Origin: Ricordea florida | Taxonomy: Eukaryota; Cnidaria; Anthozoa; Corallimorpharia; Ricordeidae | DNA: 64,000 bases | Assembly: GCA_949710005.1 (NCBI GenBank) | Contig: OX453272.1 | Location: forward strand, 7,619,633 to 7,683,632 | Direction: 5' to 3' | Shown here: in pieces, positions 42,401 through 48,400 of the stretch | How the letters are laid out: every line of letters starts with the position of its first letter | How positions within the stretch are numbered: position 1 is the stretch's first letter | The notes under the pieces: model-generated | Told to the model about the DNA's origin: nothing | Database searches by the model: none | What the model saw: the letters and a program-made list of their open reading frames with translations, nothing else | Translations under genes and position numbers: made by a program

Positions 42401-45400
42401 GCATCTTAGAATAAATGTGAGACCTTGAGAGAATATTGATAAATGAATATTGATTAATGTAATTTCTTAGAAAATTATTTAAATAGTAGTTTGGCCTGTA
42501 AAGATAGATAACTACTACAGTAGCAGTGCTGGGTATAACTTTAAAATGCAATGCTCTGATCATTTGTTCTACACCATCCTCAGAGCCAATGAAGAGTTTA
42601 ACAATGCTGTTGTCTTGACTAATCGTCCTTTAAAACCCAATGAACTACTGGAGGTTCGCATGGATATTCAAGTTGAGAAGTGGGCAGGTTCATTGGAGAT
42701 AGGGGTTACCACTCATGATCCTGCATCATTAGAATTCCCATCAACTATGACAAACCTGCAAACTCCCAGTAACTGGATGATGTCTGGAGGGGGGATAATA
42801 CATGATGGCATTGCTGTTAATGAACAGTATGGTCCAAGTCTAGAGACACTTAAGGTTTGTTACAAAAGAGTGCACTCTAAGCATGTTAGGGGATGTAATG
42901 GAGGCCCAAATACAGCATAACCACACGGACAAAAGTCAAAACACTGCAATCATGCAGTAACAACCAAAAATGCTAGGATTCAAGTGAAAATGGTGGAAAC
43001 AGTACCTAGAATCTCAAAACAGCACAAACAACCTAGTTTGGCAAAACTGCAATACCATGCCTTAAAATGAAAATTACCATAAAACCGCACCAAGAATGAC
43101 TGAAATCCATATAACCGCAAACCCTTGCATCCCCCTCTAAGTATTATAATATAATAGGACATCTGACCCCTGCAGTGTAGACATACATGTAATTGTCTAG
43201 CAGTTGCGATTCAGCCTGAGAAATGGACAGGCAGGAATGGCATTCAAATCCATAACCTCAAATACTGATGTCAGGCTCTAATAGCTAAGCTAAACAAAGC
43301 AGCCATTTACACTTAGAGCAGGTCAAAGGTGTGTTCAGGTGAGTGACGAGGGACATATATGAATTGCATGAATTAAATATGAGTCCTCTAGAAGGACATG
43401 TGGTTACTGGTATTTAGGCATTGAAAAAAGAAGTCATGTCAAAGGAGGTATATTTCTTTATTTGAAAATGGTGGACTGTAACAAATATTAAATTGAACGA
43501 TAACAAGACAAGTGAAACATTGGTGTCCTCAATAGAGTACCGAAGCGCTGACGTCACGTTACCATGGAAGCATTTTGGCTGGTTCTAAACAAAAGATCAA
43601 CATAGCGTCTCTCTTTCGGTAACGTAACGTGGACAAGTCGAAAATGGTTCAATGTTTTGCCCCAGATTGTAATCATCAATCAGAAAGGGAGACATGTAAA
43701 TTTTTTAGGTTTCCGAAGGATCCTGTGGAGTTCAATTGGTGGAAAAAGCTCCTAAGGTAAGGTAAAACACGCTAGAAATACCGGCGCTAGGTAGTGGCGT
43801 GACGACTCGAACAATTGAACTTTGACTCTTTGAATTCTTATTCTTGTTCTTAATCTTCGATATCCCTCATCAGTTACTCTTTAAAACAACGGTTTTTAAT
43901 ATGTATTAATGTTCGTTTGAAATGAATCTGCTTTTAATAGACGAGAAGACCGAAGTCCGGGAAGCAATTCTCGAGTTTGTAGCTGTCATTTTCGTGAAGG
44001 ACTGAAAGTAAATGGCCCTGAGATATTTAAAAGAAATGCCGATAAACTCTTTCCAAATGCTGAAACACGTACGCCAAAGCGAGCTAAGACGAAGAAGACA
44101 AGTTCAGAAGACTCTGTTCCGGTTTCTGATATAATCAAGCAGTTAAACGATTCGTACTCATCAAGTGGGGAAGCCTCAAAGTGTGAAACCAGCAATGCCT
44201 CTAAGCAAAATATCCTTCTTGAAGTCGAACTGGAAAACTTGAGAAAGGAATTGCAGGACAGGAAGTCAAATGAACAATATCAAAGAGAAATATACTCGGT
44301 AATGGCTTTAAGAGATGAAGTAATATGTATGGAAACAGGTCTACCAAACAAGCAAATATTTTCAATTGTTGTGAACTATGTCAGACGGTTCTCGGCAGAA
44401 ATTAACTATTTTTATGGCTGGAGGGTTGAAAGGATCCTGTTGGAAGATCAAGTTTTTATAACCCTTATGAAGTTACGACAGAACTACACAAACCTGCACT
44501 TGGCTGAGCTCTTTCACTGTAGCACTGCAACAATCAGTAATATAATACTTACATTGGTTCATGTATTATACAAGCTACTATATGAAGACTGTTTACAATC
44601 TGTGCCATCCAAAGAGAAGAACAGAACCTCTATGCCAGAATCTTTTTCTCTGTTTGGGCATTGCAAAATGGTCATCGACTGCACTGATATAGAAATTGCA
44701 GCGCCTGGTTTAATGAGTGATCAAAAATTGACTTACTCAACATACAGGGGAATGAACTCCTTCAAGACACTTATTGGTGTTGCACCAAATGCTGTTATTA
44801 CCCATGTTAAATTAAGCTAACAAAGACTATTGCACGGTGCAGAATTCATGTTGAAAGGGAAAATGCACGCATCAAAGATTTCAAGATTCTAACCTTCATT
44901 CCACCATACTTGAGATGCTACACTGAAAAAGTTTTGAAATTATGTGCTGGCTTGGTAAACTTACAAAACTCCCTCATTAGAGAAGTTAGAGATTCTGTTG
45001 ACATGGAATAGAATTATTTTTTTCTAATTCTTGGTTGGGTATAGTTGAAATGAAACATGCATCCCTAGCTGTGAGCTATATTTTGATACTTAGAACATGA
45101 TGCATGTATATATAGCATAATATGATTTTGTTTGATTCCATTAAATGTTTATATCTCTACAGTCTACCCAAAGACTTAAGTTAATTAACATCACAAGTTT
45201 GCAAAACACAACCAATTTATTCTGTACATCACATCAGATGACCACAACCCAAAGTTGTTTTTCACAAATGCTGAAAAAACATGCATGAGATTTTAACAAT
45301 GTTCAGTCTCCAACAATTTCATATGTTCATGAAAATCAGTCTGCAGAGCTGCTGACTGCCTGTAGCCTTACAGTAGATCATTAGAGAATGCTGGAATAAT

Positions 45401-48400
45401 ATGCTTAATATAAAAGTCCTTTAAGAGTTGAAGATTGTCAGCCCAGGCAGGATCTTTTTTGATTTGGAGGATGAGGGTTTCTTTTGTTGTCCACACAACA
45501 AAAAAGCAAATCTCCCTTCCAGTTAAATATAACTGTCCTTGTACTTGATGCCAGTAAACATGTCCTTTATCGAGTTCATAGTGTCCTTGTGAATTCTTCT
45601 TGATATAAAATTTACCTGATGATACTGCTTCTTCTATGGTTAAATCTCTTTGGGTGAATGGGCACTTCACCTCTAGCAGTGCATAAGTGCCTACCAATCC
45701 ATCAGGAGAGGCACCTAGCATTCCTGACAGCTCAAGCCAAATCCCAGATTCTTCAACACATAGCTTTGTTTTTTGTTCAAACATTTTCTTTGCCTGATTT
45801 TCGTTAATTATGCCCCAATTAATGGCTTGTACCCTTGATAAATCGTACTGGCCAAGCACTCGCTTTAGAAGGGATGGAGTGACTCTCTTGCAGTTTAAGA
45901 CATTTCCAAAATTGCTGGCTGTGAGTCTTCCTTTCCTTATCATTTGCCAGGAAGGGTTATCTCGTTGTCTTACGGTGGCTTTATTTACGGCTATACGCTG
46001 CTCTTCAGAGATACGAAGTTTCTCGGTAAGGTATCTCTTCTTATCCGCATGATTTAGAAATTCCCGAGACAACACAATCTCTTCTACAGTGATCGCAGGC
46101 AGGGCGTTGTTCTTTTCAGGCTCTGGAGAGAGAAGCCACAAAGTGCCGGTAAAGTTGCCGTACTTTTTCAATTCTTGGTATAACCAGGAACGATCCTCTT
46201 CGTTTACTTCTCTTTTAAGGCAATTATACTCCTTTGGGCAAGGATATAACTCTTCTACGGATTTCACTTGGTTTGGGGCCCTGGGCTTTTTCCATTTGCA
46301 TTCTACATCTGTTCGGCTAAGATTATGGATTCCATAGATAATAAGTGCCGCGGCATGGCTACATTTATAGTTTCCACGGGGACATTCGCACTTAGCAGAC
46401 TTTATTTCATTTCCATGAAGAGAAACCTGTATTGCAAAGTAAACATAGGGAACATTAAAGTTTTATACAAACGATTACGAGTGTTCCGAACTTGTGAGTT
46501 TACTTACCGTGACCTTGTAAGACTTGTCCTTCATACTGGCATGTACCAATCCTATAATCATTCCATTGGAATACTGAAAAGACTCTATATGGTCGGATTT
46601 GTAATGATTTTCACCACGTTCGATTGATTTCGGCTCACCAGAAAAGAAAGAAGTAAGAGAAGTTATCGTTATGGCCGCCATGTTGGTTCGAATGCTCTTT
46701 GTTTAGAACCACTCAAATCGTGCCCATGGTAACGTGACGTCACACTTCGGTACTCTATTTCCATAATTATTTGAATAACGTCATCTTATAATACATAAAC
46801 TCAAAACTCTTAACTTGTCATTCATTTTCATAACAACTTGAATAATGATATATTACATTTTAATATTTAATCTTCATTCAATGTACTAAATCCATGCGCG
46901 TGATTGGCTAAACTCAATCACGTGATTTTGTGATACGTCACGTCATCACCTAGTAACCGTGCACTAATGAGAATACATCATGCCATCACACAACGGCTGG
47001 CATCAAAATGGCAAGTTTTGTATTTCATTGAACTCAGATTGAATATTAAAAGGGTTAGAGACTTGAAATTCATGGTTTGTTTACAAATACACGCACTTGC
47101 TGGCTGTAAAATGAACTCGAAATTGTCAATACTGCACTCAGCTTCGCTTCGTGCAGTATTGACAATTTCTCGTTCATTTTACAGCCAGCGTGTGTGTGTA
47201 TTTGTAAACAAACCACTCATTTCAGTCTCTAACCCGTAAATAAAGTTAGAAAATAAAGGTGTCTTCAATTCTCATAATAAATTTCAGCAATAACATATTA
47301 AGGTATAAAGTTAGAATATAAACGTTTCTATAACTTTCATGATAATTTGAACAATAACATACCATATTCAAGTACCTATATAAGCTAGAGATGTAAACAT
47401 GTCTCTAAAATTTTCAATTTACAGTCGATAAGCAGTTTCACCAAATACTGGGCATTTTGAATTGTCGATGGTTGATATTGATATTGATTCTAAAAGTTGT
47501 TAGTTTTCATTTGGAATTCTCATATTTGCCGAAATCCTAACAATTCACAACTGTAAGAAACATTTTTTCACTTGGAAACAGCGACAAAAAGAGTTTGACA
47601 AACCCTCAAGCCATTTCCGAACACTGTTGGTCATACTTCACACTTCCGAAAACAGGATTTACTTACAGGACCATGACATAGTGTGTTGCTGGCTCTAAGC
47701 CAGTACCTACAACTACCTCAGAAAAATACCTAGCCATATTAAAAAACTATCTGTAAAATAACATCCATAAGAACTGAAAAATGAGTCATACCCACCTTTT
47801 AAAAATGAGGCTAGACCATCAAATAAAAAATAGAATGTAAAAATTGTGCAATATCCAAGAGATCAAGCTATTTTATTTCTTCAGTGCTTTGAAATTTGAA
47901 CCTTAGTTTCAAATTACTGTAGTTGCAGTTCTTTTGATGGAACACAGATTTCTGTCATGTCTTCATGACTTGAAGTGAAGTGGAAAGCATTCTGACAGCA
48001 ACTGTATTTTGTTAGGTTGGTGATGTCGTTGGTGTGATGTATAAAGAAGATGGGACATTACACTTCTTTATAAACTGTACAGATCTTGGTGTTGCTGCAA
48101 GGGACATTCCGTCTGACGTGTATGGTGTAGTGGATCTGTTTGGCCAGTGTGGCCAAGTCAGTATCGTCACCACGTCACCAGAGCCTTACAACATTGACTT
48201 GCCCAATGGTAGTTTAACCACACCTTTCTGTTTCTTTACGTTTTGAGATGCATTATATATTATGATCACACAATTCACTTTGAATATTTTACTTTAATTC
48301 TCCTGTGTTTCATAGGCTTTGTAATGTCTGTATTATACATAATCTGTAATATACCTTACAAGAATGGGTAAAATCGTCAACTCTGTTACATGATTAATCT

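Follow-up and report, generated by a model that had tools for sequence, protein, structure and literature searches.

A recent ISL2EU-type transposon copy in Ricordea florida, probably mobilised in trans, with an open SWIM-YqaJ nuclease frame and a truncated transposase

ISL2EU transposons are described, in the passages of PMC4482050 that deal with them, as duplicating an AT target within A|AT|T, as encoding a THAP-HTH-DDE transposase, and as having terminal inverted repeats (TIRs) whose tip is usually, not by definition, GG. Most autonomous candidates in that account also carry a YqaJ open reading frame (ORF), and the function of the extra ORFs, YqaJ in ISL2EU among them, is stated there as unknown. 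PIF/Harbinger, placed in the same superfamily (PMC4482050), needs two element proteins, and its zebrafish ORF1 product has been proposed to be a TIR-binding protein that the transposase needs in order to reach the nucleus (PMC2836001, in the parts covering this system). Neither the main text of PMC4482050 nor PMC9179366 mentions SWIM, and titles and opening abstract text of the open-licence literature on YqaJ together with SWIM yielded no description of a SWIM-YqaJ transposon protein. Here we describe a DNA transposon of 3223 bp (43534-46756) in a 64-kb stretch of the Ricordea florida genome (contig OX453272.1; the window, whose positions are used below) that pairs a THAP transposase gene with a SWIM-YqaJ nuclease gene.

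In target site, domains and second ORF the element agrees with ISL2EU, and we therefore file it as a new member of that group within the PHIS superfamily, an assignment made from these features rather than by comparison with named ISL2EU sequences. Judged by its reading frames, a deletion has made the window copy non-autonomous: its nuclease frame is intact, its transposase dead. That the element is an ISL2EU and that the lineage of the window copy was mobilised in trans is, taken jointly, highly probable. The features of the element, and the parts of the host gene on either side of it, are as follows.

42585..42854, + strand: host exon with a Neuralized repeat, upstream of the element (Pfam Neuralized, 1.4e-20)
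43532..43533, no strand: left copy of the AT target duplication; base 43531 before it is A (sequence)
43534..43593, + strand: left TIR, starting AGAGTACCGAAG (inverted-repeat alignment, 17-mer scan, genome terminus search)
43644..43756, + strand: transposase exon 1, start of the THAP domain (ATG and GT donor in the sequence; Pfam THAP 2e-11 on the spliced product)
43757..43940, + strand: putative transposase intron, GT..AG (from frame and splice signals)
43941..44820, + strand: transposase exon 2, with HTH_Tnp_4 and the start of DDE_Tnp_4, truncated by the end of the frame at 44820 (product of 330 aa)
44808..44811, + strand: junction of the 184-bp deletion, region of the second catalytic Asp gone (alignment to 3407-bp copies)
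44811..45011, + strand: leftover C-terminal transposase sequence, out of frame, including the catalytic Glu motif HVER (translation)
45368..46426, - strand: nuclease exon 2, coding for the SWIM finger and the YqaJ domain and including the stop (Pfam, lambda exonuclease match)
46427..46507, - strand: putative nuclease intron, 81 bp, GT..AG, phase 0 (sequence and frame)
46508..46681, - strand: nuclease exon 1, 58 aa (spliced translation; ATG kept in 40/40 mapped copies)
46698..46756, - strand: right TIR (inverted-repeat alignment, 17-mer scan, genome terminus search)
46757..46758, no strand: right copy of the AT target duplication; base 46759 after it is T (sequence)
48016..48213, + strand: next Neuralized repeat piece of the host gene, downstream of the element (tblastn 4.8e-15 against an upstream repeat, same gene)

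The TIRs are imperfect: with the flanking AT counted in, 15 of 15 nucleotides are complementary between 43531-43545 and 46745-46759, and a further 45 nt pair at 84%. At up to 3 mismatches an inner TIR 17-mer has the two element ends as its sole sites in the window (0.09 expected), and exact matches to an outer 12-mer are likewise confined to both ends; at up to 2 mismatches the 12-mer has 6 matches in the window vs 3.2 expected, which is not beyond chance. The insertion context reads A|AT...AT|T. On the + strand, Neuralized repeat matches of the host gene span 34953 to 57817, two of its exons match Pfam Neuralized (1.4e-20 and 1.5e-10), and the element lies in an intron, between the exon end at 42854 and the repeat piece that begins at 48016. 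The many Neuralized repeats are consistent with NEURL4, and we take the host to be a NEURL4-like gene.

The transposase frame of the window copy encodes 330 aa vs 455 aa in full-length relatives. Absent from it are 184 bp that the 3407-bp relatives possess, a segment in which the second catalytic Asp lies (within ADKGF in most of them), and past the deletion the frame shifts. Pfam recognises THAP (2e-11) and HTH_Tnp_4 (1.2e-13) in the product, and DDE_Tnp_4 covers only profile positions 1-46 of 158, as against 1-158 (4.8e-34) in the relative L036, whose 455-aa frame has a complete THAP-HTH-DDE set by Pfam and itself carries Asn at the second Asp. The intact catalytic triad expected of an autonomous transposon is thus missing from the window copy, in which the second Asp region is deleted, and we rejected an intact gene pair in the window on account of the 184-bp deletion, the frameshift and the loss of that region. 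A 4-nt microhomology at the deletion, suggested by BLAST coordinates, was also discarded; by eye about 1 nt is shared.

The nuclease, convergent with the transposase, is predicted to be a spliced 410-aa protein of exons 1 and 2 without stops. Pfam matches YqaJ (2.4e-15) and, preceding it, the CxC...CxH motif of SWIM (1.1e-4, 22.1 bits vs a cut-off of 19.6), and gives a partial profile match to Viral_alk_exo (PF01771, 2.5e-7); the scan of the element proteins found no Myb match. Residues 143-262 of exon 2 match lambda exonuclease (3.8e-8), and in this match the motifs SPDG and LExK align. Columns of Arg, Ser, Glu, Asp, Glu, Lys and Gln are common to four divergent nucleases of the R. florida genome, the other three being 26-30% identical to that of the window, and the columns from Arg to Lys are likewise unchanged in 40/40 copies of the window family. 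We take the invariant Arg/Ser/Glu/Asp/Glu/Lys set to be the lambda exonuclease catalytic residues. Judged from these columns, the nuclease core is kept over longer evolutionary time, and since the frame is whole and has both lambda-type catalytic residues and a SWIM finger, the window gene most likely still encodes a DNA-binding 5'-to-3' exonuclease. In the sister nucleases SWIM falls under the cut-off (14.6 bits in L066; no match up to E 0.1 in L064 and L065), and three of the four SWIM ligand columns also align in these three families.

Much of this agrees with an earlier model reading of the window (the sequence-only reading). The TIRs, the AT on both sides and the coordinates 43534..46756 that it gave were recovered from the sequence and by inverted-repeat alignment; Neuralized repeats lie on either side of the element, as its placement inside NEURL4 implied; domains and AT duplication bear out the ISL2EU layout of a THAP transposase with a SWIM-YqaJ nuclease; the THAP call stands in Pfam; and the 410-residue protein with a spliced 5' exon holds up as a gene model, its splicing predicted, with both of the Pfam matches proposed as a check. 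Its claim of a working two-gene element fails on the 184-bp transposase deletion (330 aa instead of 455), and a transposon with its own nuclease, which it had called unusual, is not so within the group, a YqaJ ORF being typical of most autonomous candidates in the ISL2EU account of PMC4482050.

We searched the assembly (537.8 Mb, 48 contigs), scoring 40 of 194 DNA candidates, 115 of 715 nuclease candidates and 150 of 638 YqaJ candidates, so that all copy numbers are lower bounds. Counts over 40 copies refer to 32 complete copies plus L050, which has no recognised ends, and seven partial copies (L024-L030); as L031-L050 came in as the top-ranked DNA hits of the window copy, the 32 are not a random sample. 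Recognised ends were present in 32 of the 33 stretches fetched as full copies, L050 being the exception. Genome-wide, termini at up to 3 mismatches numbered 131 left and 138 right (control counts 0). Pairing the first 100 of each side gave 85 pairs, 81 of them at 2.1-4.2 kb, with 15 left and 15 right ends unpaired; four very long pairs (13.5-18.7 kb), one of which spans a tandem array on contig C11, were set aside. None of the 85 pairs was shorter than 2 kb, and no short derivative keeping the 34-bp end was seen among these first 100 left and right ends; shorter forms that retain just the tips may exist.

Flanks of about 500 bp per side were available for 19 of the 32 complete copies and flanks of 8 to about 100 bp for the other 13. 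AT stands on both sides in 31 of the 32 (exception L060), with a preference for A before it (17/31) and T after it (17/31; p 0.003 each; both in 6/31), which agrees with the A|AT|T target reported for ISL2EU. Among flanks of at least 20 bp, including those of the 19 copies with 500 bp, no homology between copies was found at E 1e-4, the sole match at that threshold joining the left and right flanks of L049. Because the flanks of different copies are unrelated at this threshold, at least 19 copies are independent insertions.

The C11 array (about 6815982-6824946; L068, L069) contains portions of at least three elements arranged head to tail. The two junctions read show one and the same end-to-end fusion, CTTCGGTA adjoining GTACCGAAG, with a few bases missing per tip. 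Such an array is odd for a cut-and-paste element.

Both genes are intact in 6 of the complete copies (L038, L042, L043, L051, L054, L061), the nuclease only in 15, the transposase only in 6 (L041, L044, L048, L049, L057, L058) and neither in 5 (L045, L046, L055, L056, L060). Open 455-aa frames with Asn at the second Asp were scored as broken, as was L053 with its C-terminally altered frame, and L044 was scored as intact despite an in-frame loss of 24 bp; an open transposase frame with the second Asp kept is thus present in 12/32. The sequence-only reading had named genome copies without one gene or without the shared TIRs as evidence against itself: 26 of the 32 do lack at least one working gene, while the ends are kept in 32 of 33.

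Several broken forms recur. With up to 1 mismatch allowed, the junction of the window deletion is found twice in the genome (control 0), and the 500-bp flanks of these two copies have no mutual match at E 1e-4. With the same junction at a second place and unrelated 500-bp flanks, this broken form has most likely moved in trans. Asn replaces the second Asp in 5/32 copies, and genome-wide at 6 places vs 111 with Asp. Among the other transposase lesions, L033 and L035 share a 2-base loss combined with a large insert, L059 and L062 a stop with a frameshift, and L045 and L046, whose nuclease is broken as well, a 7-base loss. In L052, L063 and 6 partial copies a single base is missing at coding base 816; this loss lies in a T run and may be a shared assembly error. 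In the nuclease, a ~100-bp insert with an 8-bp target repeat defines a 3515/3521-bp class (L057, L058) in which both copies keep the transposase frame; broken matches at the same residues indicate this lineage at 18 of the 115 scored places, of which 17 have both pieces listed. Codon 262 is a stop in 4/32 copies (L041, L044, L045, L046), and L048 and L049 have stops that differ (213, 218). Exon 2, the part of the nuclease covered by this search, matches at full length at 81/115 scored places and is free of stops at 70 of these.

A tree of 29 copies, with the large-deletion copies L055, L056 and L060 left out, has 24 inner branches, of which 10 are well supported and 8 open. It requires at least 8 changes of transposase state and at least 3 of nuclease state, and nuclease lesions number at least 4 once the different stops are counted. 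Breakage of either gene has thus not kept lineages from spreading; supply in trans is possible for both proteins, and neither therefore seems to be needed in cis. The R. florida genome in this way offers natural tests, in which near-identical lineages without one gene or the other have moved.

Two of the inserts mentioned above have features of their own. That in L057 and L058 (element base ~2222-2330) ends in a CATTAT-type repeat within its flanking 8-bp target repeats, and presumably resembles a retroelement tail. That in the transposase gene of L033 and L035 (~590 bp, element base ~914-1500) contains repeated GATCGTTCCA-like motifs and is perhaps another small transposon.

We favour, with rather more confidence than doubt, the reading that the window copy is a recent non-autonomous ISL2EU copy, mobilised in trans, whose nuclease is a probable trans helper. 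In intact relatives, as the AT flanks and knowledge of the family suggest, the THAP-HTH-DDE transposase would bind the element ends, cut at the tips of the TIRs and insert the excised element into an A|AT|T-like target, with the 2-bp AT duplication as the result. Having lost 184 bp of its transposase, the window copy would have spread through the transposase of other copies, its putative helpers. The nuclease may act in trans on DNA ends, during or after excision, and this end processing would steer donor-gap repair toward copying from a homologue. We put forward that specific role tentatively, as somewhat short of an even chance. A helper function is plausible because the related PIF/Harbinger requires two proteins, as that system is presented in PMC2836001.

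Several observations weigh against this reading. On the inner branches of the tree, nonsynonymous to synonymous (N:S) counts of 23:18 (omega 0.42, range 0.21-0.82, one-sided p 0.005) show purifying selection on the transposase, as estimated from these alignments; for the nuclease, the 27:9 observed against an opportunity of 3.1:1 (omega 0.96, range 0.44-2.33) gives no detectable purifying selection in this biased set of closely related copies. Since the difference between the two genes is not significant (p 0.10) and the copies are biased and closely related, moderate selection on the nuclease is possible; on the end branches the two are alike (transposase 38:15, omega 0.82; nuclease 22:9, omega 0.78). 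The nuclease-insert lineage is common, at 18 of the 115 scored places, so that a need for the nuclease in recent spread is no more than a possibility. Internal-deletion breaks lend little support to resection and annealing: no bases are shared at the breaks of L053 and L056, L055 has 3 nt of filler, and the window copy shares about 1 nt (the break in L060 has a 4-nt overlap by BLAST coordinates, unlike these eye-checked ones). Finally, in the copies read the TIR starts with AG, unlike the GG given as usual for ISL2EU in PMC4482050.

A credible but doubtful alternative casts the SWIM-YqaJ protein in a part like that of the Myb-like ORF1 of PIF/Harbinger: it would bind DNA and assist the transposase, by occupying the ends or by carrying the transposase into the nucleus, with nuclease activity secondary. 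The two-protein need of PIF/Harbinger and the TIR-binding and nuclear-localisation roles suggested for zebrafish ORF1 (PMC2836001, in the parts cited) fit such an adaptor, as do the SWIM motif before YqaJ in the window family and the alignment of 3/4 ligand columns in three other families. A pure adaptor, however, would have no need of catalytic columns that are invariant at 26-30% identity and in 40/40 copies, and the transposase already has a THAP finger of its own. It is unlikely that the nuclease is dispensable for transposition, a passenger acting for example against competing extrachromosomal DNA or on host repair and lost without cost. The spread of nuclease-broken lineages (the insert at 18/115 places, two of them read; the codon-262 stop in 4/32) and N:S counts at neutrality on inner branches would suit a passenger, but exon 2, the portion searched, is full-length without a stop at 70/115 scored places, the nuclease stands beside a DDE transposase in 4/4 families looked at, and supply in trans can mask its loss just as it masks that of the transposase.

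We consider quite improbable, and offer as speculation, a shared two-enzyme economy in which transposase-only and nuclease-only lineages are suppliers, both proteins act in trans, and the nuclease is a second transposition factor that channels donor-site repair. If it were true, the lack of short derivatives among the pairs formed and the head-to-tail array on C11 with its trimmed, fused ends would be products of the repair step. That the lesion-sharing copies arose by segmental or assembly duplication and not by transposition is very improbable: they are nearly identical and 13/32 copies have short flanks (8 to about 100 bp), yet no between-copy match at E 1e-4 was found for the 19 copies with 500-bp flanks, both window-deletion copies among them, or for shorter flanks of at least 20 bp, and the real tandem array on C11 is set apart.

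Genes with YqaJ are abundant in the R. florida genome: at least 150 places exceed the profile cut-off (150 scored of 638 candidates), with open frames of up to 2226 aa. In the three further families read, the YqaJ frame is again convergent with a transposase frame. L064 (contig C3) has a 994-aa frame at 1605-4586 (+) with YqaJ (3.9e-15) and an Ulp1/C48 protease domain (5.8e-6) and, by eye, a SWIM-like motif and PHD-like cysteine clusters; its convergent partner, on the - strand from L064 5438 to L067 1193, is a 519-aa THAP-HTH-DDE frame (DDE_Tnp_4 7.8e-52). Of 2985 candidates 33 were scored, and at least 31 places in the genome show 98-100% identity; this is a very young sister family; literature that pairs YqaJ with Ulp1 concerns, by title, giant viruses. 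The other two are ISL2EU-like, with a YqaJ frame of 655 aa at 656-2620 (+) and a DDE transposase frame at 2713-4092 (-) in L065, and a YqaJ frame of 512 aa at 989-2524 (+) and a DDE transposase frame at 2711-3328 (-) in L066. Expanded YqaJ domains in a clam were counted among 'endogenous viral elements' in the relevant part of PMC7826175; from what is seen in R. florida, those counts may represent ISL2EU nucleases instead. Viral contigs, scanned twice for a small set of peptide patterns, gave pattern matches but no confirmed relative. In phages, tblastn matched 146 records, all at <60% identity (28.5% for the top-ranked).

Among known systems, lambda exonuclease is encoded by its phage beside an annealing protein and not beside a transposase. 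The phage enzyme (PDB 1AVQ, 3SLP, 4WUZ) shares with the window nuclease the YqaJ-type core with SPDG and LExK, and differs in having no match outside residues 143-262, and so no SWIM finger; the likeness to viral alkaline exonucleases (PF01771) is the partial profile match at 2.5e-7. Spy, with no target duplication and a single ORF, is not matched by an element with an AT duplication and two genes. PIF/Harbinger (Ping, Pong, Harbinger3), as portrayed in the accounts cited above, is like ISL2EU in its DDE transposase and two element-encoded proteins, but has a TWA duplication and a Myb/SANT second protein where the window element has AT and YqaJ, and it mobilises abundant miniature inverted-repeat transposable elements, whereas the window family gave no pair below 2 kb among the 85 formed. 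Unlike an autonomous ISL2EU, the window copy has a dead transposase; with ISL2EU as outlined in PMC4482050 it shares the AT duplication, the TIRs, a second ORF with YqaJ and, in its relatives, the THAP-HTH-DDE transposase.

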